Source of the DNA: Flavobacteriaceae bacterium
Lineage (GTDB): Bacteria > Bacteroidota > Bacteroidia > Flavobacteriales > Flavobacteriaceae
Direction: 5' to 3'
NCBI GenBank assembly: GCA_029252105.1
Contig: JAQXCA010000091.1
Location: forward strand, 1-52,822
Length of the DNA stretch: 52,822 nucleotides
Of this stretch, positions 30,794-41,516 are shown piece by piece. A program made the translations under genes and the position numbers. Numbering within the stretch: the stretch's first letter is position 1; each line of letters begins with the position of its first letter. The notes under the pieces were generated by a model, which was not told the origin of the DNA, searched no databases, and saw nothing but the letters and a program-made list of their open reading frames with translations.

Positions 30794-31244
30794 ATTTTAA
30801 AATTTGAGCAGTATGTTCTTTAGTTTTGACTTTTAGAATAATGTCTTCAATAATACCAGCTTGGTCAATGACAAAAGTAGTTCTGTGAATTCCATCGTAT
30901 TCCTTGCCCATAAATTTCTTAGGCCCCCAAACGCCAAAGGCTTTGATTACCGATTTATCTTCATCTGCCAATAACGGGTACCGAAAACCATACTTTTCTT
31001 TAAAATTAGTTTGTCGTTTAGCGCTATCGGCACTCACGCCAAGAACGTCATAACCTTGAGCTGTAAAACGACTGTAGTTATCGCTTAAATTACAAGCTTC
31101 AACAGTACAGCCTGGAGTACTGGCTTTTGGATAGAAGAACAATACGAGTTTTTTTCCTTTATAATCTGCTAAAGAAATTGAGTTTCCACTTTCGTCTAAG
31201 GCTTTAAAATCTGGAGCAGCATCGCCTATTTGTAATGTAATCAT
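30792..31244 (-). CDS. bcp: Thioredoxin-dependent peroxiredoxin (Bcp/PrxQ)
   Basis: A 150-residue BCP-type peroxiredoxin that reduces hydrogen peroxide and organic peroxides with thioredoxin. The peroxidatic Cys46 and resolving Cys51 are in STPGCTVEACNL, five residues apart as in the alpha-BCP subgroup; FFYPKAS and the catalytic Arg in HRTTFVID are also present. Cytoplasmic. It is divergent from nth with 37 bp between start codons and has its own -7 element (31269-31276, minus strand). Confidence 0.95.
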   Translation of the reverse strand: MITLQIGDAAPDFKALDESGNSISLADYKGKKLVLFFYPKASTPGCTVEACNLSDNYSRFTAQGYDVLGVSADSAKRQTNFKEKYGFRYPLLADEDKSVIKAFGVWGPKKFMGKEYDGIHRTTFVIDQAGIIEDIILKVKTKEHTAQILK

Positions 31245-31258
31245 AATTAGTATCTTTG
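31229..31258 (+). promoter_or_regulatory. Promoter of nth
   Basis: TTTG (31229-31232), an 18-bp spacer and TATCTTTG (31251-31258) form a good Bacteroidota promoter ending 23 bp before the nth ATG. Its -33 box overlaps the first codons of bcp, which is transcribed the other way. Confidence 0.65.
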
Positions 31259-31268
31259 GTTAGTTCAA

Positions 31269-31276
31269 CAAATATA
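31269..31276 (-). promoter_or_regulatory. -7 element for bcp
   Basis: On the minus strand this reads TATATTTG, an exact TAnnTTTG match 24 bp upstream of the bcp start. It overlaps the nth leader, so the two divergent promoters share the 37-bp gap. Confidence 0.45.
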
Positions 31277-31281
31277 AAGGA

Positions 31282-31929
31282 ATGACTAAAACTGAGAAGG
31301 TAAATTTTGTTATAAAAACCTTAAAAGATTTTTATCCCGAAATCCCTATCCCCTTAGATCATAAGGATCCATACACACTTTTGATTGCCGTATTGCTATC
31401 TGCACAATGCACGGATGTGCGTGTGAATAAAATTACACCGCTCCTGTTTGCCAAAGCCGACAATCCTTATGATATGGTAAAACTAACGGAGGAAGAGATC
31501 AAAGCCATAATACGGCCTTGTGGATTATCGCCCATGAAAAGTAAAGGCATTTATGGCTTATCAAAAATTCTTATAGAGTCCCACAACGGCGAGGTTCCGC
31601 AGAGTTTTAGCGCTTTGGAGGCTTTGCCTGCTGTAGGGCATAAAACCGCAAGTGTGGTAATGGCACAGGCGTTTGGTGTGCCTGCATTTCCTGTGGACAC
31701 GCACATTCATCGCTTGATGTACCGCTGGAACCTGACGAATGGTAAAAATGTGGTGCAAACAGAAAAAGATGCGAAACGATTGTTCCCAGAAAATTTATGG
31801 AACGATTTGCACTTGCAAATCATTTGGTATGGCCGTGAGTACTCCCCTGCTCGTGGGTGGGATTTAGAGAAAGATATCATTACCAAAACTATTGGTCGAA
31901 AATCGGTTATTGACCAATATTACAAATAA
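31282..31929 (+). CDS. nth: Endonuclease III (HhH-GPD) without the Fe-S cluster cysteines
   Basis: A 215-residue DNA glycosylase/AP-lyase of base-excision repair. The helix-hairpin-helix is LEALPAVGHKTASVVMA with catalytic Lys121, and the catalytic Asp139 is in PVDTHIHRL. E. coli Nth ends with a C-x6-C-x2-C-x5-C iron-sulfur loop; here that part reads REYSPARGWDLEKDIITKTI and contains no cysteine, so no [4Fe-4S] cluster can form. Length is close to normal, so this is replacement, not truncation. The last 31 nt of the gene belong to a 380-bp direct repeat whose second copy lies at 36642-37018. Confidence 0.93.
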   Translation: MTKTEKVNFVIKTLKDFYPEIPIPLDHKDPYTLLIAVLLSAQCTDVRVNKITPLLFAKADNPYDMVKLTEEEIKAIIRPCGLSPMKSKGIYGLSKILIESHNGEVPQSFSALEALPAVGHKTASVVMAQAFGVPAFPVDTHIHRLMYRWNLTNGKNVVQTEKDAKRLFPENLWNDLHLQIIWYGREYSPARGWDLEKDIITKTIGRKSVIDQYYK

Positions 31930-32285
31930 ACTCAGATTTCTTTTTTTTGGTAGAACGAATTTTAAAGTTTCTACTCTTTAAAAGACCCTCTATGGCATTC
32001 ATTTGTCGCCATATTATTTATTTGTTTTATAATTCAAGTAATACATTATCAGTTGTTTACGTTATTTTTTTAGTGCCTATTTTTTGGTAGTTTAAAAAAA
32101 AAATTATAACTTTGAGTGATTGTTTAAGATCCCAAATCTAAATCTTCATAAGCAGCTTAACCGAAGTTGACGCATTTTTGTTTACATAGTACAGATGACA
32201 TTTGGGAAACTAGAGTGGCACAATACATGCCAATAAGGGATATATTGAAGCACTCCAGACAAAATACAAAGAAAATATAAACCAC
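31899..32285 (+). repeat. Direct repeat copy A: nth 3' end, promoter and leader
   Basis: Starts in nth (aaaatcggttattgacc) and continues about 380 bp. The second copy is at 36642-37018. The first 50 bp differ at one position, a synonymous CAA/CAG change in the nth frame; after that mismatches and small indels increase, but blocks such as the one around 32128-32153 and that around 32208-32234 remain nearly identical. It holds the strongest promoter-like sequence of the window and no credible ORF. The two copies enclose the two T9SS-protein genes. Confidence 0.85.
32084..32114 (+). promoter_or_regulatory. Consensus promoter in repeat copy A
   Basis: TTG (32084-32086, within TTTTTGG), a 20-bp spacer and TAACTTTG (32107-32114) match the Bacteroidota promoter layout. 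The same elements with the same spacing occur in copy B. Transcription would start near 32120 and run through a leader of roughly 540 nt to the subtilase gene at 32656. Confidence 0.7.
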
Positions 32286-32299
32286 TAGAGGTTTATATA

Positions 32300-32460
32300 C
32301 ACTAGATGATGCACAATTCATCTAAAGGTGAACCCAAATTGCTACGTGCTTCGCACTCCCGCCTTTTGGGATTGTGCATTATCGCCGCGATCTACCGGAT
32401 AGCGTTAGACGTAGGTATTAGGAGGATAGCTATCTACCACCTTGAGGTGGTATCGAACAA
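32300..32460. repeat. G+C-rich hairpin cluster in the leader of the subtilase gene
   Basis: The stretch is richer in G+C than its surroundings and full of dyads: ATGATGCACAAT (32306-32317) pairs with ATTGTGCATTAT (32371-32382) with one mismatch; inside it CCCAAA (32333-32338) pairs with TTTGGG (32365-32370) and GTGC-TTC-GCAC forms a small hairpin at 32346-32356. Further on, GATAGCTATC (32425-32434) is a perfect palindrome and TACCACC-TTGA-GGTGGTA (32435-32452) a perfect 7-bp hairpin. This block is absent after copy B. The remaining 32461-32655 is A+T-rich and shows nothing recognisable. An open frame crosses the block but is not protein-like. Confidence 0.6.
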
Positions 32461-32655
32461 AACAGTGCATATCAAGTCGCTATACCGCAATTTGATAACG
32501 TTCTTTTTGTTTTTTGAATTTAGCGCATCAAAAATGCATCAATTAAAAACCCAGAACAGGAGATTTTTATTACGGAATTGTAGTAGAAAAGTCATTATGA
32601 CAAGTACTTAACACTCCTAAAAGAGTTAAGTTTTAAATTCTTCAATTACCAAGCA

Positions 32656-35454
32656 ATGAAAAAAATTATTTTAACATCCATTTTATTTGTCTTTATTTTG
32701 AGTGTTTACTCTCAAAGTAAACAAGATTATTATGTTGTCGTAAAACTAAATAAGACCATTGAACCAATAACAAAAACAGTAAATTCAGATAACACTTTAT
32801 CATTAACTTTTAATGATAACGATTTAGAAACCTTTTTTAATAGTAAAATTGTCTATAAATACAAAAAAGCATTTCCGACCGCTATCACACCGCAATTACA
32901 AAGAACATATCTAGTTACTTTACAAGAAAGTTCTTCTGTAAAAGATTTATTAAATTTTGATGAAATTGAAAGTATTGGATTAATAAGTGATGAAGGGGGA
33001 GTTTTATACGAGCCAAATGATTACTCAGAGGGAAACGGAGAAGCAAATAGAGCATTAGAATTAGTTCATGCTTCTGAAGCATTTGACTTAACAAAAGGAA
33101 ATCCCAATATATTAGTTGGCATAGTTGATACTGGTTTTGAAACTACACATGATGAATTGATTAATAAAATCACACAAAATTTTGATGACAGTATTGGTAA
33201 TTTATCTCACGGAACTGCAGTCGCAGGATATGCAGCAGGAGATACAGATAATGGTATTGGTATTTCAAGTATAGGATTTAATACTCGGCTAGTAACTTCT
33301 GGTAATTTTAGTAGTGCTGCAGTGAGAAATGAAGAAATGTTTAGGATTTCACAATTACCTAACGTAAGGGTAATTAATGGTAGTTGGTATAATCGTTGTA
33401 GTCCAGACACAGCAACAGACACAGAACAATTATTATATAAAGAGATTTGGGAGAGCGGTGTCGTAGTAGTATTTGCCGCTGGAAATGGGGACACATGTGG
33501 AGGACCAACAAATTATTTATATCCACAATCTTATGGCCATGTAATCCAAGTTTCATCTGTAGGTACATCTTTCCCATATGGCACAACTCATCCAACTTTG
33601 GGTCAAATTGAATGGAAAGATTCTCATGTAAATGTAATTGGCAACCCAAATAGCACACATCATCATCATGATAAAGTAGATTTAGTTGCACCAGGATATG
33701 CTGTACCTGGAAAAGTAGCTCTAAATAATAGTTATGGTAAAGGTACAGGTACTTCATTTGCATCACCACAAGTAGCAGGTGCTTGTGCTTTAATTTTAGA
33801 TGCAAATCCAAATTTAACTCCTGATGGGGTTAGAAATATTTTACTTTCCACAACAGATGATATTTATCATTTACCCATAAACCAACAATTTATGGGGCAA
33901 CTTGGCACAGGAAGATTAAATGTTTACAGAGCCGTAAAAACTGCAAAATGCTTATTTGATAATGATTCAAATCCACAGTTGGATTTGTATATGAGAAACT
34001 CATCATCTGATTTAGGAGTAGAACCTGATGAAGAAACAGGTAATGTTGTGTGGCAAAGTAAAGATATTTGGGTTAGGAATCAACCAGACGGCAAGTATGT
34101 AAAAGAACACCAAAACCCTGAATACGATCCAAACAATCCAAATTATGTTTATGTAAGAGTTCGAAATACAAGTTGTGTAACTTCATCAGGTAATGATGAA
34201 TTAAAACTATATTGGGCGAAAGCAAGCACATCTTTGGCGTGGCCACAACATTGGGATGGCTCACTATTTATTGATGGTATTTCTATGGGTAACGAAGTAG
34301 CAACGTTAAATATTCCTGTTTTAAAACCTGGCCAAGAAACTATAATACAATACGAATGGAATGTGCCAAAACCTGATGATTATACAAATATTAATCCCGA
34401 TCCATGGCATTTCTGCTTATTATCAAGAATAATATCTAATGATGACCCTATGACTTCTACCGAAGTTTCAAGTATTTGGTCTAATGTTAAAAACAATAAT
34501 AATATTGCATGGAAAAACACAACAGTTGTTGATATACTTCCAAATAGAACAAGTCCTGTTGGTGGAGTAGTAGCAATTGGTAATCCATTCAATGAAACAA
34601 GAACATTTAGATTAGAATTGGTAAGAGAACAAAATGAATTAGGAAAAGCTATATATGACGAAGCAGAAATAGGTCTTAAAATGGACGATGTTCTTTTTGA
34701 CGCTTGGGAAAGAGGTGGCAAAAACAGTTTAAAACTTAAAGCATCCAACAAAGTGCAAAAAAAGACTGTTACCGATAATAATGTAATAATTGATAACATT
34801 CAATTTGAACCTAATGAAATTGGAACTTTATACTTAACCTTTAATTTTCTTACTAAAGAGTTAACCCGTAAAGATAAATTTACTTATCACGTAATTCAAA
34901 GAGATGCAACTACCAACGAAATTATAGGTGGAGAAACCTATGAAATAAGAAAAAAATCAAGAGAAGTATTTAGTGCAGATGCAGGGAATGATAAAGAAAT
35001 TGACAAAAATGAAGTTGTAACCATAAGTGCCGAAGAAATTAATGAAGCCGCTATTTATAATTGGTACGATGAAGATGGTAATTTAATTTACACAGGTAAA
35101 GATTTAACCGTTTCGCCTGCTGTAACTAAAAAGTACAAATTAGAAATAATTACAGACAAAGATGGGTATAAAGATTTTGACGAAATAGAAGTTAAGGTTA
35201 ATCCATACTCTATACAAAGTTTGTCGCCAAATCCTGCTTCAAATCAAGTGAATGTTAATTATAAAGCACAAGGTTCATCCTCTGCTTATATAATGATTAC
35301 AAACATAACAATTGGGACTTCCAATAACTATATTTTAAACCCAAATGAGTTAGAAACAAGTATAGATATTTCAAATTATCCAAAAGGTATATATGGTGTT
35401 GCTTTAGTTTGTGATGGCATAATAGTAGATGCGAAAAATTTAATAATTCAATAG
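32656..35454 (+). CDS. T9SS-secreted subtilisin-like serine peptidase (S8)
   Basis: A 932-residue secreted protease. Signal peptide MKKIILTSILFVFILSVYSQ, an N-terminal prodomain-like part to about residue 120, then a subtilase domain with catalytic Asp158 (GIVDTGFETTHD), His185 (NLSHGTAVAGYAAG) and Ser367 (GTGTSFASPQVAG); the oxyanion asparagine is in FAAGNGDTC. Middle domains resemble beta-sandwich modules, followed near residue 770 by a PKD/Ig-like segment (SADAGNDKEIDKNE) and a type A T9SS sorting domain (SLSPNPASNQVNVNY ... YPKGIYGVALV) over the last 75 residues, so it is exported by type IX secretion. It lies between the direct repeats with the next T9SS gene 56 bp downstream. Confidence 0.92.
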   Translation: MKKIILTSILFVFILSVYSQSKQDYYVVVKLNKTIEPITKTVNSDNTLSLTFNDNDLETFFNSKIVYKYKKAFPTAITPQLQRTYLVTLQESSSVKDLLNFDEIESIGLISDEGGVLYEPNDYSEGNGEANRALELVHASEAFDLTKGNPNILVGIVDTGFETTHDELINKITQNFDDSIGNLSHGTAVAGYAAGDTDNGIGISSIGFNTRLVTSGNFSSAAVRNEEMFRISQLPNVRVINGSWYNRCSPDTATDTEQLLYKEIWESGVVVVFAAGNGDTCGGPTNYLYPQSYGHVIQVSSVGTSFPYGTTHPTLGQIEWKDSHVNVIGNPNSTHHHHDKVDLVAPGYAVPGKVALNNSYGKGTGTSFASPQVAGACALILDANPNLTPDGVRNILLSTTDDIYHLPINQQFMGQLGTGRLNVYRAVKTAKCLFDNDSNPQLDLYMRNSSSDLGVEPDEETGNVVWQSKDIWVRNQPDGKYVKEHQNPEYDPNNPNYVYVRVRNTSCVTSSGNDELKLYWAKASTSLAWPQHWDGSLFIDGISMGNEVATLNIPVLKPGQETIIQYEWNVPKPDDYTNINPDPWHFCLLSRIISNDDPMTSTEVSSIWSNVKNNNNIAWKNTTVVDILPNRTSPVGGVVAIGNPFNETRTFRLELVREQNELGKAIYDEAEIGLKMDDVLFDAWERGGKNSLKLKASNKVQKKTVTDNNVIIDNIQFEPNEIGTLYLTFNFLTKELTRKDKFTYHVIQRDATTNEIIGGETYEIRKKSREVFSADAGNDKEIDKNEVVTISAEEINEAAIYNWYDEDGNLIYTGKDLTVSPAVTKKYKLEIITDKDGYKDFDEIEVKVNPYSIQSLSPNPASNQVNVNYKAQGSSSAYIMITNITIGTSNNYILNPNELETSIDISNYPKGIYGVALVCDGIIVDAKNLIIQ

Positions 35455-35510
35455 ATAACGAAAAAACAGGGAGAAACTAATCTGCCTGTTTTCTATAAAA
35501 GCAAGAAATT

Positions 35511-36656
35511 ATGAAAAAAACACTAATCTTAATATTATTAGTTTCAGCATTTAAAGTATTTGCACAACATCCTGATTTGCGTCAAGTATGGTATGCTCAA
35601 AGTGTAACAATAAATAGTGTAACAACGGAAATTCCAAATGACCCAATTGAATTACCTTATGTTTATTTACATTTTTTTAATAGTACAAGTGGTCTATTGG
35701 GTTCAGGTAATACAAAAAGTTATTATGCAACTAATTGCGACATTGGTTTTGTTGGTCATGCTAATTATATGGGAACAGATATTTTTGAATTTATTGATTT
35801 TACAATATCGCAAGATATTACAAACTGTAGTACAGAATTCATCAATTTTATGAACATATATGTAAATTTTTTTAGCGACACAATTACAGAACAATTTACG
35901 TATAACATTACAACAGAAGCAGATAATAGTAAAACAATGTTGGTAACTAATAATAATGGTGACAACGTTATTTATACAAATACTTTTTTTAATTCAGCCC
36001 CGCAAGATATGACAAATAATAATTGGTATTTACATAACTTAATTATTGAAGGTGTTGATAATAATATTCCATCAAATAATACAGAATTATCAGAAATAAC
36101 TTTAAATTTTAATGACAGTGGTAATAGTTTATCAACTAATTCTTGCAGTTTTTTAATTGCGCCTCATTTTTTTGATTTTACACTATCTCAATTTTATTTA
36201 TACGAACCAGGTGCAAGTTTATCTGCCTGTGGTATTCCTTCTAATAATGTCTTTGATAATTTATACACTAACGAGTTCTATTTAGGTAATTTACCTGGTC
36301 CTTTTAGTTATGAACATATAATTAATGGCAGTACGGAAACGCTTACAGTTACAAATGCTGTAGGTAACCAAGCAGTTTATCGCAATTTTAGTTTATTAGT
36401 ATTATCTACTCAAGAATTTACAAATTCAATATTTTCTATTTATCCAAACCCTGTAAGTGAATTTTTAAATATAGAAGTACCAAATAATGAAAAAATACTT
36501 CAAGTATCTGTTTATAATTTATTAGGCAAAAAGATACTAACTACAACAGAAAATAGTATTAATCTATCTAAATACGAAAATGGTATTTACCTTGTAAAGG
36601 TATTAACAAAAAATGGAGGCAGTACAACAAAAAAAATAATCAAAATCGGTTATTGA
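35511..36656 (+). CDS. T9SS-secreted protein with two tandem lipocalin-like repeats
   Basis: A 381-residue protein with signal peptide (MKKTLILILLVSAFKVFAQ) and a C-terminal type A sorting domain (FSIYPNPVSEFLNIEVP, VSVYNLLGKKILTT, LSKYENGIYLVKVL). Between them are two related units of about 130 residues: each starts with W-Y-x, has a conserved cysteine pair, and ends in (L/V)TN--G-(N)-x-(V)-x-Y-x-N-F, giving an internal duplication. No catalytic motif seen. The coding sequence is very A+T-rich. The last codons (IKIGY and stop) are formed by the first bases of repeat copy B, i.e. by the duplicated nth tail read in another frame, so the gene end coincides with the repeat junction. Confidence 0.85.
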   Translation: MKKTLILILLVSAFKVFAQHPDLRQVWYAQSVTINSVTTEIPNDPIELPYVYLHFFNSTSGLLGSGNTKSYYATNCDIGFVGHANYMGTDIFEFIDFTISQDITNCSTEFINFMNIYVNFFSDTITEQFTYNITTEADNSKTMLVTNNNGDNVIYTNTFFNSAPQDMTNNNWYLHNLIIEGVDNNIPSNNTELSEITLNFNDSGNSLSTNSCSFLIAPHFFDFTLSQFYLYEPGASLSACGIPSNNVFDNLYTNEFYLGNLPGPFSYEHIINGSTETLTVTNAVGNQAVYRNFSLLVLSTQEFTNSIFSIYPNPVSEFLNIEVPNNEKILQVSVYNLLGKKILTTTENSINLSKYENGIYLVKVLTKNGGSTTKKIIKIGY

Positions 36657-37018
36657 CCAGTATTACAAATAAACTCAGATTTCTTTTTTTTGTAGAACGA
36701 ACCTTAAAGTTTCTACGATTTAAAACACCCTCTATAGCATTCATTTGACTCCATATTGTTTTTTTTGTTTTAAATCATAAGTAATACAATATCAGTTATT
36801 TACGTTATTTTCTTAGTGCCTATTTCTTGGCAGTTTAAAAAATATATTATAAATTTGAGTGATTGATTAAGACCCCAGATCTAAATCTTTGTAAGCAGCT
36901 TGACCAAAATTGAAGCAACTATTTTATTTAAAATTATTTAACACTTAGGGAACTAGAGTGACACAATACACGCCAATTTGGTATGTATTGTTGAATAAAA
37001 TATAAACGAAATAAACAC
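36642..37018 (+). repeat. Direct repeat copy B: nth 3' end, promoter and leader
   Basis: Second copy of the repeat at 31899-32285, colinear over its whole length. It retains the final codons of nth as a non-coding fragment after an unrelated gene, which shows that the sequence was duplicated or imported as a unit. The 429-bp gap between the T9SS gene and the membrane-protein gene at 37087 consists almost entirely of this repeat; the last 70 bp contain AGTTGGCAACT, a short palindrome. Confidence 0.85.
36827..36857 (+). promoter_or_regulatory. Consensus promoter in repeat copy B
   Basis: TTG (36827-36829), a 20-bp spacer and TAAATTTG (36850-36857): same geometry as in copy A, although the spacer and the nn positions have diverged. 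It would start a transcript with a leader of about 225 nt ahead of the gene at 37087. Confidence 0.7.
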
Positions 37019-37086
37019 ACCTAAAAAAGTACACACACAGTAGTTGGCAACTATTACCAATCGCACTCTGAAAAATGAATTAACTT

Positions 37087-37509
37087 ATGAATAATATAGA
37101 AAAACGACAAGCACTTTTTGAGAAAGGAATTGCTATCCAAACCGAAGCTACAAATAAGCTTCTTACTCAAACTATAAACCATATTATTCTTTTAGCATCT
37201 TCATTAGTTGTAATTCTTTCGACTTTATCTGCTCCAAATAATCACAACATTTATATTTATCGTTATTTACTTTGTATTCTTCTACTATCCATCTTTTGTG
37301 GAATAATTTGTAATTCCATAATAACAATTGATTATTACAATCTTGGCAAGAAAGTTCAAAAACAGGCAAAAGCACCAGACCACGAGGATGATAAACAAAA
37401 ATTGATAAGAACTGGGAAACTTTATTACTATTTGATTTTAGGTACTTTTTTAGGATGTTTAATCTCTTTTTTAACATCATTAATATTACTTGTTAATTAT
37501 GCTTGGTAA
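37087..37509 (+). CDS. Small membrane protein of unknown function, three TM segments
   Basis: A 140-residue protein: a polar helix of about 25 residues (NIEKRQALFEKGIAIQTEAT), then three hydrophobic segments (IILLASSLVVILSTLSA, LLCILLLSIFCGIICNSIIT, LILGTFLGCLISFLTSLILL) separated by a short periplasmic loop and a charged cytoplasmic loop (KAPDHEDDKQKLIRTGK). No family recognised. It follows repeat copy B with its promoter and precedes a hairpin cluster, so it belongs to the accessory insertion between nth and the sigma gene. Low G+C and simple composition are similar to the T9SS genes. Confidence 0.7.
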   Translation: MNNIEKRQALFEKGIAIQTEATNKLLTQTINHIILLASSLVVILSTLSAPNNHNIYIYRYLLCILLLSIFCGIICNSIITIDYYNLGKKVQKQAKAPDHEDDKQKLIRTGKLYYYLILGTFLGCLISFLTSLILLVNYAW

Positions 37510-37520
37510 TTAATACTGAT

Positions 37521-37671
37521 AAACCCCACGCTCCCGCACGAATCATTTCGTGTGGTTAGTTAAAGCAAAGAACTATTATTAATAAAAATAAAAAAAACCG
37601 CTAGCGCGCATATTTTGCTCGTGACAGTCGGTTAACTGCACAAGCGAAACACTTGCGCTAGCAGTGCAGTA
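37521..37671. repeat. Hairpin cluster with mutually exclusive stems (REP-like)
   Basis: First unit: CCGCACGAA (37534-37542) pairs with TTCGTGTGG (37547-37555), one G-T pair, loop TCAT. Second unit: AACCG (37596-37600) with CGGTT (37629-37633); GCTAGCGC (37600-37607) with GCGCTAGC (37655-37662); ACTGCAC (37635-37641) with GTGCAGT (37664-37670). The last two stems cross each other, so they form a pseudoknot or alternative folds. The second unit is G+C-rich within a very A+T-rich gap. No ORF uses it. Confidence 0.55.
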
Positions 37672-37675
37672 AAAA

Positions 37676-37699
37676 AAATCCCAACAATTGTTGGGATTT
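37676..37699 (-). terminator. Terminator of the sigma-factor/47-residue gene transcript
   Basis: A perfect 10-bp stem, AAATCCCAAC (37676-37685) with GTTGGGATTT (37690-37699), loop AATT. On the minus strand it is followed by a T tract (A run 37671-37678 on the plus strand), 13 bp after the stop codon of the small minus-strand gene. Confidence 0.8.
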
Positions 37700-37712
37700 G
37701 TGAAGTTACATC

Positions 37713-37856
37713 CTAATTTATTAAAGATTCAAAATTTAAGCCCTTATAAACAGCAACTTTCAATGCTTTTGAATAGTTTAGAAGGAAATTTATGGTTTCT
37801 GGTTTAGGATTAAATGTATTAGAATTAAGGGGTTTTTCAGTGTAAAGTTTTGCCAT
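37713..37856 (-). CDS. 47-residue conserved-looking protein after the sigma gene
   Basis: A short open frame below the usual length cut-off: it starts MAKLYTEKPLNSNTFNPKPE and ends YKGLNFESLIN. It has a Lys/Pro-rich start and an amphipathic helix (TINFLLNYSKALKVAVYKGL), and I recognise this pattern from very small soluble proteins of flavobacteria, though no function is known. Support for it being real: it lies 66 bp downstream of the ECF sigma gene on the same strand and is followed at once by a strong terminator, so the transcript appears to end after it. Confidence 0.7.
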   Translation of the reverse strand: MAKLYTEKPLNSNTFNPKPETINFLLNYSKALKVAVYKGLNFESLIN

Positions 37857-37922
37857 TAGCCTGTCATTGTTAGTTAGTTAATACCTCTAACGCCAAGAAC
37901 ATGGATTTATTTTATGGATCCT

Positions 37923-38507
37923 TTAATTTGTTAAAACAATATTGTGAGTTTCAATTAATTTGCGCAAATTAATTAGTGCATAACGCATACGCCCTAAAGC
38001 AGTATTTATACTCACCCCCGTATTTTCAGAAATTTCCTTAAAGCTCATATCGTTATACATGCGCATAATAAGAACCGTTTTTTGTTCTTCAGGTAATTCT
38101 TCAACCAAGGCACGGACATCTTCAACAATTTGAGATTGCACGAGTTCCGCTTCAGCATTTAAAGCGCCATCACTCAGTACCGAAAATATATCAAAATCCC
38201 CGCTATTGTTAAATTTCGGCATGCGATTATTTTTTCTAAAATGATCGATCACTAAGTTATGTGCAATACGCATCACCCACGGTAAAAACTTTCCTTCTTC
38301 ATTATACTTACCACGCTTAAGGGTACGAATGACTTTTATAAAGGTATCTTGAAAAACATCTTCGGTGACATCGCGGTCAAAAACCTTAGAATAAATAAAA
38401 CTGTAGAGTCGTTGTTGGTGGCGATTAATGAGAACAGACAAGGACTGTTCATTGCCTTTAACATAATCACTGACGAGGATGGCATCACTTATTGAATTTG
38501 AGTTCAT
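37923..38507 (-). CDS. RNA polymerase sigma factor (ECF/sigma-70 family)
   Basis: A 194-residue sigma factor with region 2 (QQRLYSFIYSKVFDRDVTED, then VFQDTFIKVIRTLKRG and FLPWVMRIAHNLVIDHFRKN) and region 4 (LPEEQKTVLIMRMYNDMSFK then EISENTGVSINTALGRMRYA). The complete regions and its place next to uvrA suggest a backbone factor, not a mobile one. A 14-bp perfect inverted repeat spans its leader and start codon (38506-38570), and the promoter region shares a 25-bp motif with the small gene next to oxyR. The 47-residue gene follows in the same transcript. Targets unknown. Confidence 0.92.
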   Translation of the reverse strand: MNSNSISDAILVSDYVKGNEQSLSVLINRHQQRLYSFIYSKVFDRDVTEDVFQDTFIKVIRTLKRGKYNEEGKFLPWVMRIAHNLVIDHFRKNNRMPKFNNSGDFDIFSVLSDGALNAEAELVQSQIVEDVRALVEELPEEQKTVLIMRMYNDMSFKEISENTGVSINTALGRMRYALINLRKLIETHNIVLTN

Positions 38508-38581
38508 AACATTACTTTTAATAGTACAAAAATGATGTACTGGGTTAAAAAATATAAAAAGTAATGTTATTCTATAAGCGT
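38506..38581 (-). promoter_or_regulatory. Start-codon hairpin and shared promoter motif of the sigma gene
   Basis: ATAACATTACTTTT (38506-38519) and AAAAGTAATGTTAT (38557-38570) are perfect 14-bp complements separated by 37 bp that include a GTAC...GTAC inner pair. The proximal arm includes part of the start codon (ATG at 38507-38505 on the minus strand), so a transcript starting upstream of the distal arm would hide the start in a stem. The distal arm extends into a 25-bp motif shared with 17836-17860. The duplex could act on RNA or as a pair of protein-binding sites. Confidence 0.55.
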
Positions 38582-38726
38582 TTGTTTTAGGTGATAAAAA
38601 TCAAATATAACAACAATCTGTGGTATATAACAAATTTTTTTTTAATTTTTAACGCTAAGAACCCCTAATACAGCTGTACTATTTTTTATAATAATGGTAT
38701 CTTTACATCCAAATTTGATACCATAA

Positions 38727-41516
38727 ATGCCATTAGACCTTTCAAAACTAAGTCCAAAAGAACACATTCTAATTAAAGGTGCAAAATTGCACAACCTAAA
38801 GAATATAGATGTTGCGATTCCACGGCACAAACTGGTAGTCATTACAGGGCTTTCAGGTTCTGGAAAATCAAGTTTAGCTTTTGACACCTTGTATGCTGAA
38901 GGACAGCGGCGTTATGTGGAAAGTTTATCTAGTTATGCGCGACAGTTTTTGGGTCGCCTCCACAAACCCAACGTCGAATATATCAAAGGTATTGCGCCAG
39001 CTATTGCGATTGAGCAAAAAGTAAACTCTACCAATCCACGATCAACTGTAGGTACTAGTACAGAAATTTATGATTATTTAAAATTAGTTTTCGCACGAAT
39101 AGGAAAAACGTACTCCCCTATTTCAAATGCTGTGGTCAAGAAAGACACGACTAGTGATGTCATCAATCATATTAAAACATTAAAGATAGGCGAGAAACTT
39201 CTGCTTTTGGCACCTATTCATTTAGAAGAGGGACGAACGATGGAGAATAAATTACAAGCACTCCAACATCAAGGTTTCGCACGAATCAAAGTAAAGGATC
39301 GTGTTGAGCGCATAGAACACATTGAAGATTTTAAAAAACTTCCAAAAACAACCAGTCTTGTTGTGGATCGGATCATTGTAAAAGACGAAGAGGATTTTTA
39401 CAACCGCTTAGCAGATGCCGTTGAAATGGCCTTTTTTGAAGGGAAAGGACGTTGTCAAATTGAAAAAATTGACGGTTCTGAAACTCGTGAATTCAGCAAT
39501 TCATTTGAACTTGATGGTCAAAAGTTTTTAGAACCCAATACCCATTTATTTAGTTTTAACAACCCTTATGGCGCTTGTCCAAAGTGTGAAGGCTATGGCG
39601 ATGTTATCGGAATTGATGAAAGTCTAGTGATTCCAAACACTTCGCTTTCAATTTTTGAAAATGCAGTATTTCCATGGCGTGGAGACAGCATGAAATATTA
39701 TCGAGATCAATTGGTAAATAATTGCCATAAATTTGACTTTCCAATTCATAAGCCTTATTTTGAATTAGGCCCCAAACACCAGCAATTACTTTGGACGGGG
39801 AATACACATTTTATGGGCTTAAATGACTTTTTTGCAGAGTTAGAATCCAAAGCTTATAAAGTTCAAAATCGGGTAATGTTGTCGCGCTATCGAGGAAAAA
39901 CAAAATGTAGCAGTTGCCACGGAAAACGTTTACGAACCGAAGCCAATTATGTAAAAGTGGGAGGCGCTTCTATAACTGATTTGGTAGAATTATCACTTAA
40001 AAATTTAATAGCGTTTTTTAAGACCCTCAAATTAGACACTAACGATAAAGAGATTGCGAAACGACTTCTAAAAGAGATTCATAATCGCTTAGGGTTTTTA
40101 TCGAATGTAGGTCTGGATTATTTAACGCTCAATAGAAAATCAAACACCTTATCTGGAGGAGAAAGTCAACGTATTAATTTGGCGACTTCTTTGGGCAGTA
40201 GTCTTGTGGGCTCGATGTATATTTTGGACGAACCGAGTATCGGACTCCATTCTAAAGACACGGAACGCCTTATCAATGTACTAAATGCCTTACGAGATTT
40301 AGGCAATACTGTTATAGTTGTAGAACATGACGAGGCTATTATGGCCGCCGCAGATCATGTCATTGATATTGGCCCTGAAGCAGGCTCCTTTGGGGGAGAA
40401 GTCATGGCAAATGGGAGTTATAAAGCCCTTCTAAAAAGTGATACCCTAACGGCACAATACCTCAATGGAACTCTTGAAATTGAAGTTCCTAAAAAACGGA
40501 GAACCTCTAAATACAGTGTAATTGTAAAAGGTGCACGAGAACATAATTTAAAGAATATTGATGTTACATTTCCACTAAACATGCTTACCGTTGTTACAGG
40601 CGTTTCTGGAAGTGGAAAAAGTACACTTGTCAAACAAATTTTATATCCAGCCTTACTCAAATCAATTGGAGGTTATGGCGAAAAAGCTGGAGAGTTTACA
40701 AGTATCGATGGTAAGTTTAGTACTATTAAATTTATTGAATTTGTAGATCAAAATCCGATAGGTCGCTCATCACGTTCCAATCCTGTAACCTATATCAAAG
40801 CATACGATGATATTCGTGCCTTATTTTCAAAACAAAAATTAAGTGTTTTAAGAAATTATCAACCTAAACATTTCTCGTTTAATGTGGACGGTGGACGTTG
40901 TGACACTTGTAAAGGCGAAGGAGCAGTAACGATCGAAATGCAGTTTATGGCTGATGTCCAACTCCTTTGTGACGACTGTAATGGAAAACGCTTCAAAAAA
41001 CAAGTGTTAGAAATTAAATTTAATGAAAAGACAATTGATGATGTTCTTACCATGACCATCGATGATGCAATTGCATTTTTTGACACTCACAAGGAGACAA
41101 AAATAAAAACAAAACTACAACCGCTTCAAGATGTAGGACTTGGTTATGTAACCCTTGGACAAAGCTCTTCGACACTGTCTGGCGGTGAAGCGCAACGTAT
41201 CAAATTAGCGTCCTTTTTAGGAAAAGGGTCTAAAGCAGAAACAGGCTTATTTATTTTTGATGAGCCCACGACTGGACTTCATTTTCATGATATTAAAAAA
41301 CTCCTAAAATCCTTTAACGCCTTGATTGACAAAGGCCATTCTATACTGGTGATTGAGCATAATTTGGATCTTATTAAATGTGCCGATCATGTGATTGATT
41401 TAGGCCCCGAAGGTGGTGCTAATGGTGGGTATCTATTAGCAGAAGGCACCCCAGAAGCGGTAGCAGAATCTAAGAATTCTTCAACTGGTTCTTTTCTGAA
41501 AAGTAAATTGAACTAA
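38727..41516 (+). CDS. uvrA: Excinuclease ABC subunit UvrA
   Basis: A 929-residue UvrA, the damage-sensing ATPase of nucleotide-excision repair. Two ABC modules are complete: Walker [21 protein letters not shown] (residues 41-60) and [19 protein letters not shown], signature [12 protein letters not shown] and [12 protein letters not shown], Walker B with [10 protein letters not shown]. The C-terminal zinc module (CDTCKGEG ... CDDCNGKRF) is intact. The first zinc finger keeps only its second cysteine pair (ACPKCEGYG): where most UvrA have FACPxCG there is [13 protein letters not shown]. Length is otherwise normal. Transcribed alone, divergent from the sigma gene. Confidence 0.96.

Follow-up and report, generated by a model that had tools for sequence, protein, structure and literature searches.

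The window analysed here is a stretch of 52,822 nucleotides from a Flavobacteriaceae bacterium (GenBank assembly GCA_029252105.1), comprising one whole contig (JAQXCA010000091.1; C101 in our numbering) of a 1.58-Mb genome that is 73% complete. It carries a direct repeat, copies A and B, on either side of two genes that lie behind nth, the gene for endonuclease III. We propose that A and B represent two alleles of an integron platform lacking an integrase, an element found at conserved sites across the genus, with B the resident allele and A an imported one; we put the probability of this reading at roughly three in four. Its platform part is carried by the anatomy of the element, a broken integrase between its halves in relatives, the matching of cassette starts and ends (R' and R''), attC-like ends and variable sites shared between genomes, as documented in the sequences compared. 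A broader proposal is that the platforms belong to a Bacteroidia integron whose recombinase lacks the IntI-specific additional domain (I2) and reads attC through its N-terminal domain or in some other way, that may predate I2 and that takes a distributed form in Candidatus Arcticimaribacter. It is more tentative, and we would set it a shade below even odds.

A dispersed putative platform at conserved sites

The comparison covered 18 genomes of the genus, that of the window included (relatives are labelled from G001 onward, and loci by L numbers). Only the first ~115 bp of the repeat belong to the nth site. The remaining ~290 bp, from ~32014 on, are not nth-specific, and pieces of them occur at four further places in the same genome. 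At least one match to this dispersed element was present in 16/18 genomes, and a model of its 3' part, built on a seed of 21 sequences that includes both window copies, gave 52 matches in 12/18 genomes, three of which lie on the opposite strand to another match and some of which are weak. The copies have a common left boundary and typically end in ...TATATACACTA, followed across the boundary by GTTRNN, after which the sequence varies.

The anatomy consists of a promoter-like site, a leader, a hairpin, a dyad and an attI-like crossover box. The promoter-like site resembles TAnnTTTG, the Bacteroidetes -7 consensus, and its position ahead of the leader makes it, from sequence alone, a candidate cassette promoter (Pc). 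Covariation in the hairpin is weak (pairs 16-50, 17-49 and 18-48; 18 cells changed on both sides versus 9.8 in shuffles). Such cells outnumber those in each of the 500 shuffles. The count of covarying pairs, by contrast, is reached by 232/500, and 11/21 sequences are unpaired at two of these three pairs. Of note, L197, L223, L225 and L238 have, behind the stop codon of the integrase, a hairpin with a loop like ATTTGGG that resembles, by eye, that of the window platforms. A second variant of the left half (GTGATTTTTTTTATACGTTTA...) also occurs in the genus (L133, L135).

Three relatives (L127, L132 and L133) have a tyrosine recombinase gene, broken or reduced to fragments, that separates the left half of the element from the right, and for this reason we read the window copies as integron platforms from which the integrase was deleted. 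Mapping gave 32 platform sites, two with integrase remnants and five at nth; it should be noted that the G003 genome is 8% contaminated and contributes double sites to this map. Eight site groups away from nth have flanking gene families common to 2-4 genomes, with different open reading frames (ORFs) in between, and at two of the eight one member has no ORF of at least 80 aa in that position (G012 C3, G001 C12). The genus holds such platforms at several conserved chromosomal sites, the interval between nth and the sigma factor gene beside uvrA among them. A recombinase acting in trans would serve the integrase-less platforms and perform the catalysis, and the cassettes would be expressed from the platform promoter.

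Cassettes and attC-like ends

In an integron array, the first bases of a cassette (R') complement its own last box (R''). We took each GTT plus six nucleotides within 180 nt after the integrase stop and sought the reverse complement downstream. Start and end were complementary over 9 nt at 16/28 integrase loci (34 loci minus 6 with <600 nt), with mismatched pairs of starts and ends giving a mean of 1.6 and a maximum of 4. Among named loci across Bacteroidia, the count was 25/48 (80 minus 32 with <700 nt; mismatched mean 3.1, maximum 7), the two sets overlapping in at least three loci (L087/L184, L162/L208, L164/L245). One of these contigs, L184, is titled Rhodobacteraceae yet matches the flavobacterial G012, and is probably mislabelled. 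At platform loci, where attI boxes were located by pattern, 12/24 matched at 9 nt and 14/24 at 8 nt (mismatched means 1.4 and 2.0, maximum 4). These 24 include one with an upstream integrase end, which matches, and one outside the genus; for the integrase-less platforms of the genus, the 9-nt count was 11/22. The genome of the window has one more platform, on C15, and its cassette (GTTGGCAAA...TTTGCCAAC) has a matching start and end and an attC-like end with GTA as the R' box.

The ends found in this way were scored for L boxes, and 7-8 of 8 pairs were formed in 64% of 53 ends versus 5% of 1005 other AAC positions (p=3.5e-19). The 53 are the 55 ends found minus 2 without GTT; they were chosen regardless of hairpins, and chance matches were kept. 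Spacers were mostly 2-3 and 5-6 nt. By this measure, the predicted cassettes are bounded by attC-like ends of the form R''-L''...L'-R'. Many loci have an attI-like dyad and a GTT box, recognised by their sequence, no more than 180 nt from the stop of the integrase. Five of nine ORFs behind platforms have Pfam matches above cut-off: ParD, ParE, AbiEii, DUF6088 and a short-chain dehydrogenase. The R'/R'' test took the place of two generic attC finders, which did not discriminate; one of them returned 121 matches on 504,522 nt of shuffled DNA, counting both strands.

A recombinase family without the IntI insert

In G012, an intact 376-aa integrase gene is followed by a dyad and then by four cassettes whose ends match by eye. 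The four integrases scored are tyrosine recombinases (PF00589, 133-144 bits), for which the IntI model TIGR02249 ranks second in NCBIfam (206-219 bits, under its cut-off of 265) and XerC/D models come next. As an integrase detector at E<=0.001, TIGR02249 was rejected as unspecific, with matches in 14/14 control genomes and none above cut-off. Relatives of the family at E<=1e-55 were found in 101/296 Flavobacteriales genomes, about 70 of them above 290 bits, those at the low end (about 190-200 bits) being Xer-like. Draconibacterium, Maribellus, Marinifilum, Labilibaculum and Salegentibacter are among the named relatives, a set of 80 loci out of more than 594 candidate stretches. L186, titled Candidatus Arcticimaribacter, encodes an integrase 70% identical to that of G012, and the genus of the window would be the same. 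Plasmids from Chryseobacterium, Parabacteroides and Phocaeicola also carry integrase relatives (41-45%), and Acinetobacter plasmids carry a tyrosine recombinase 49% identical across 63% of the query.

The motifs GKG.K and HxLRH are separated by 59-61 residues in the 43 of 106 extracted family sequences that have both motifs as written, versus 102 in nine canonical IntI and 68 in 12 XerC/D proteins. Residues 182-238 of IntI4 (2A3V), which we take to hold helix I2, are left unaligned by the family profile. A structure model (mean predicted local distance difference test score, pLDDT, 84; predicted template modelling score, pTM, 0.54) has no added helix at the I2 position but does have an additional domain, about 75 residues long, at the N terminus. 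Judged by these comparisons, the recombinase family is one without I2, the insert specific to IntI that is reported to be required for cassette capture. Closest to it among solved structures, in a fold search made mainly with residues 84-345, are XerA, an archaeal Xer and IntI 2A3V. In a 46-row tree built without XerA and other outgroups, XerC/D of the genus stand apart from the family plus IntI (100/99), and IntI, on a long branch, lies beside two members of the family that carry the labels Fidelibacterota and Delongbacteria (91/98; inner branch 81/34); that IntI arose from the I2-less family is a suggestion only.

No canonical IntI was found in the order of the window: the 108 genomes matched at E<=1e-50 are 107 of the same phylum and one of the same class. 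In the phylum, Bacteroidota, 105/395 genomes have an IntI over the TIGR02249 cut-off, which is commoner than the consulted parts of the literature suggest.

The two copies in the window

Taken to its full extent of homology, copy A spans 31899-32307 and copy B 36642-37045, and both are laid out alike: they open with the final 31 nt of nth, continue with ~84 nt of nth-side flank and close with the ~290-nt element. The first-pass annotation of this DNA had described a colinear direct repeat. The repeat is real and reaches slightly past the ends claimed there, the extension to 32307 and 37045 coming from a model whose seed includes both copies and which therefore matches them by construction. Ungapped in-register blocks pair 31899-31949 with 36642-36692 (98%), 31942-32033 with 36684-36775 (84%) and 32017-32174 with 36760-36917 (85%), and gapped BLAST aligned 353 nt at 84% identity. 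The features of the region are as follows.

31282-31929, plus strand: nth (endonuclease III), intact; copy A opens with its final 31 nt
31930-32013, plus strand: nth-side flank of copy A, within the inserted segment; missing at the empty site of G004; dispersed copies begin near 32011-32017
32014-32307, plus strand: platform A, a putative dispersed ~290-bp integrase-less integron platform; model R1, with this copy in its seed, scores 103 bits at 32205-32307
32107-32114, plus strand: promoter-like TAACTTTG, fitting TAnnTTTG; a conserved leader core follows, to ~32170
32213-32255, plus strand: hairpin GAGTGG...CACTC; the same hairpin follows the integrase remnant in L132
32276-32305, plus strand: attI-like dyad and crossover box of A, degenerate, with G^AT in place of the expected G^TT
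32306-32655, plus strand: mostly non-coding stretch after the attI-like site of A and probably a cassette that has decayed; over the first ~50 nt it agrees at 92% with the nth locus of G008
32656-35454, plus strand: subtilase (Pfam PF00082), with a PF18962 sorting-domain match of 25.3 bits, below the cut-off of 27
35511-36656, plus strand: protein secreted by the type IX secretion system (T9SS; PF18962, 54 bits)
36642-36672, plus strand: detached 3' 31 nt of nth (by alignment), start of copy B and right insert junction
36757-37045, plus strand: platform B with attI-like box; cassette start GTTGGCAAC at 37043; model score 60.9 bits, with this copy in the seed
37087-37509, plus strand: 140-aa ORF, probable first cassette of platform B
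37676-37699, no strand: terminator-like palindrome, right border of the inserted segment; sits at the stop of nth in G004
37923-38507, minus strand: RNA polymerase sigma factor, conserved right neighbour (gene order, Pfam)
38727-41516, plus strand: uvrA, conserved right neighbour (gene order)

The final nth codons reported in copy B are indeed there, as 31 nt joined onto the T9SS gene at its end; the TGA stop of that gene falls within the detached tail and out of the nth frame. A synonymous CAA/CAG, described as the only early difference between the copies, is the sole one over the first 51 nt, in the nth frame. An inverted repeat, GTAGAAC..GTTTCTAC, was also seen in the nth-side flank (31950-31974 and 36692-36716), with related sequence at the nth loci of relatives.

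After A, the expected cassette end has a one-mismatch match at 32535. The 140-aa ORF behind B has no Pfam match and no matching cassette end. By R'/R'' and L-box scoring, no intact cassette end follows A or B in the window, which thus falls short of the two or more attC sites that define a cluster of attC sites lacking integron-integrases (CALIN). The crossover regions of A and B both look decayed, and with no intact cassette end the window copy may no longer be active. An integron-integrase profile search of the genome gave only a XerC/D-like 308-aa gene on another contig, in agreement with the earlier statement that an integrase is missing here.

The nth locus in relatives and the origin of the segment

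The gene order nth-sigma-uvrA is kept across the genus and in the inspected family members, and full-length nth is present in 13/17 other genomes of the genus (amino-acid identity 92-97%). The nth-sigma interval is empty (about 250 bp) in five of the 13 (G004, G011, G014, G015, G017) and holds a platform in six (G012, G007, G003, G010, G008, G009); G002 has kept the attI end alone, and in G001 the interval is taken up by 3.4 kb of other genes, with no match. In G004, the terminator palindrome comes directly after the nth stop, as at an empty site. Five of the six platform-bearing relatives have a single copy per locus, the contig of G008 stopping inside the interval. The locus of G009 (L135:700-8100) has two platforms with differing left-half types; between them lie a 735-aa gene (glycosidase-like by eye) and a 984-aa gene. 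Behind the nth platform of G003, an ORF (L040:10512-10817, minus strand) has a beginning that, by eye, would resemble the Cas9 RuvC-I region, the remainder being other sequence. A two-copy arrangement in all relatives, which the first-pass annotation had named as the mark of an old local duplication, is not what these loci have. Its suggestion that the 3' end of nth acts as an attachment region found no support: the tail merely hosts the platform, and the crossover box lies about 380 bp further on.

The other origin proposed there, import from a relative, fared better. In a tree of repeat copies, A groups with the single copy of G012 and B falls outside (92/92; A-G012 0.27, A-B 0.29, B-G012 0.34). 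At fourfold sites, nth diverges from G012 by 0.226, the lowest of 24 window genes (next 0.268 and 0.298; median 0.455), and some genes at 16.6-18.9 kb are likewise low. The right flank of B matches that in G012, and the detached nth tail in B retains the CAG found in G012. Subtilase homologues (46-54%) occur in 5 other genomes of 149 family genomes, a search that took in one other genus member only, G010, which had no match. A T9SS homologue follows the subtilase in 5/6 foreign loci, and these five alignments stop at residue 378/381, so that the last T9SS residues probably derive from the nth junction. GC content at third codon positions (GC3) is 0.17 in the subtilase and 0.14 in the T9SS gene, compared with 0.28-0.42 for nth, sigma and uvrA. 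The two low-GC3 genes of the cargo form a unit that occurs patchily in other genera. A history in which B was resident and A arrived with a foreign subtilase-T9SS operon is the better of the two considered, and is moderately supported. Copy A would have come with nth sequence and the operon; homologous recombination in or near nth would have made the left end, and an illegitimate join the right end, which left the T9SS gene fused with the nth tail of the resident copy.

The other history is an old tandem duplication at the nth 3' end in the own lineage, with the cargo inserted or retained between the copies later. Colinear copies that each carry an nth tail are what it predicts. It is unlikely, though worth keeping in view: copy A is as near to G012 as to B and groups with the former, the nth tail of B has the CAG of G012 and is otherwise as in A, against a difference of about 15-23% over the remainder of the repeat, and the T9SS gene appears to have its own end fused to nth. 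Should the repeat ends instead be attL and attR of an ordinary integrative element or genomic island, copy A would restore the nth 3' end, as happens with islands at gene ends, and the 98% identity of the 51-nt block would fit. We regard this as extremely improbable, since the segment has no integrase gene, its cargo is a two-gene unit only, 290 bp of the repeat are a dispersed platform found also away from nth, and relatives have single nth platforms with other cargo; among the 13 nth loci examined, there was no integrase-bearing element with exact 51-bp nth att sites. A structured RNA, a promoter cassette or a miniature inverted-repeat transposable element, related in no way to integrons and with incidental genes downstream, would account for the promoter-like motif, the partly covarying hairpin and the dispersal. 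It is very unlikely in view of the GTT boundary, the cassette-specific R'/R'' matches, the attC-like ends and the integrase remnants between platform halves, and an Rfam scan of 31000-39000 found no family reaching gathering thresholds.

Several observations count against the integron platform reading itself. No integrase of the I2-less family is encoded in cis in the window or elsewhere in the 73%-complete genome (no match at E<=1e-55), and at the nth loci of G003, G008, G010 and G012 the platform has a decayed attI end. The genomes examined contain no intact integrase between both halves of the element, and the intact integrase loci inspected (G012 L128, G010 L131) are without the left half, so that the parent form is reconstructed from broken copies. 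For all four integrases, the best NCBIfam model is that of XerA (NF040815, 210-237 bits, over cut-off in 3/4). Within the stretch examined, 12/28, 12/24 and 23/48 loci have no 9-nt match, and at least 2 of the 16 matches (L144, L173), along with a few among the 25, seem to be chance. As for the import of A, its grouping with G012 is based on ~400 nt and could be mimicked by exchange between dispersed platforms, and nth is also the second least diverged gene against G007, so its rate may contribute.

Relation to known systems

Like the integrons of Vibrio cholerae and class 1, the proposed system has an IntI-related tyrosine recombinase, an adjoining attI-like site, a G^TT boundary and small ORFs with attC-like ends, with toxin-antitoxin genes in the cargo. 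Unlike them, its recombinase has no IntI insert and an extra N-terminal domain, the integrase is co-directional with the cassettes, and integrase-less platforms occupy many fixed sites. In the Treponema chromosomal integron, too, intI is transcribed toward attI, in the cassette direction; that integron is described with intI, and the accessible portion of the paper mentions no dispersed platforms (PMC3607928). As in a CALIN, cassettes lie away from any integrase, but here an attI-like platform with a promoter-like motif is kept and the sites are orthologous between genomes. The lack of the insert, the NF040815 score and the top fold matches (XerA, archaeal Xer) are shared with Xer recombinases, whereas the XerA-free tree and the link to attI-like sites and cassettes set the family apart from XerC/D.

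For the phylum, one paper lists Bacteroidota among integron-bearing phyla (PMC8618304) and another states that only In0 elements were found earlier in Bacteroidetes, to which a complete Salinibacter integron is added (PMC9024848). Among the papers listed in searches of open-licence PubMed Central, with subscription journals and bioRxiv outside that scope, we found no report of integrons with I2-less integrases in Bacteroidia or of dispersed attI platforms.

The association of an I2-less family with attC-like cassettes makes the requirement of I2 for cassette capture directly testable. If one recombinase does serve many platforms, this would be a new integron layout, and a class-wide I2-less system would represent a large unseen pool of mobile cassettes. 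The repeat in the window would then be a pair of cassette landing sites belonging to a little-noticed gene-capture system of Bacteroidia.

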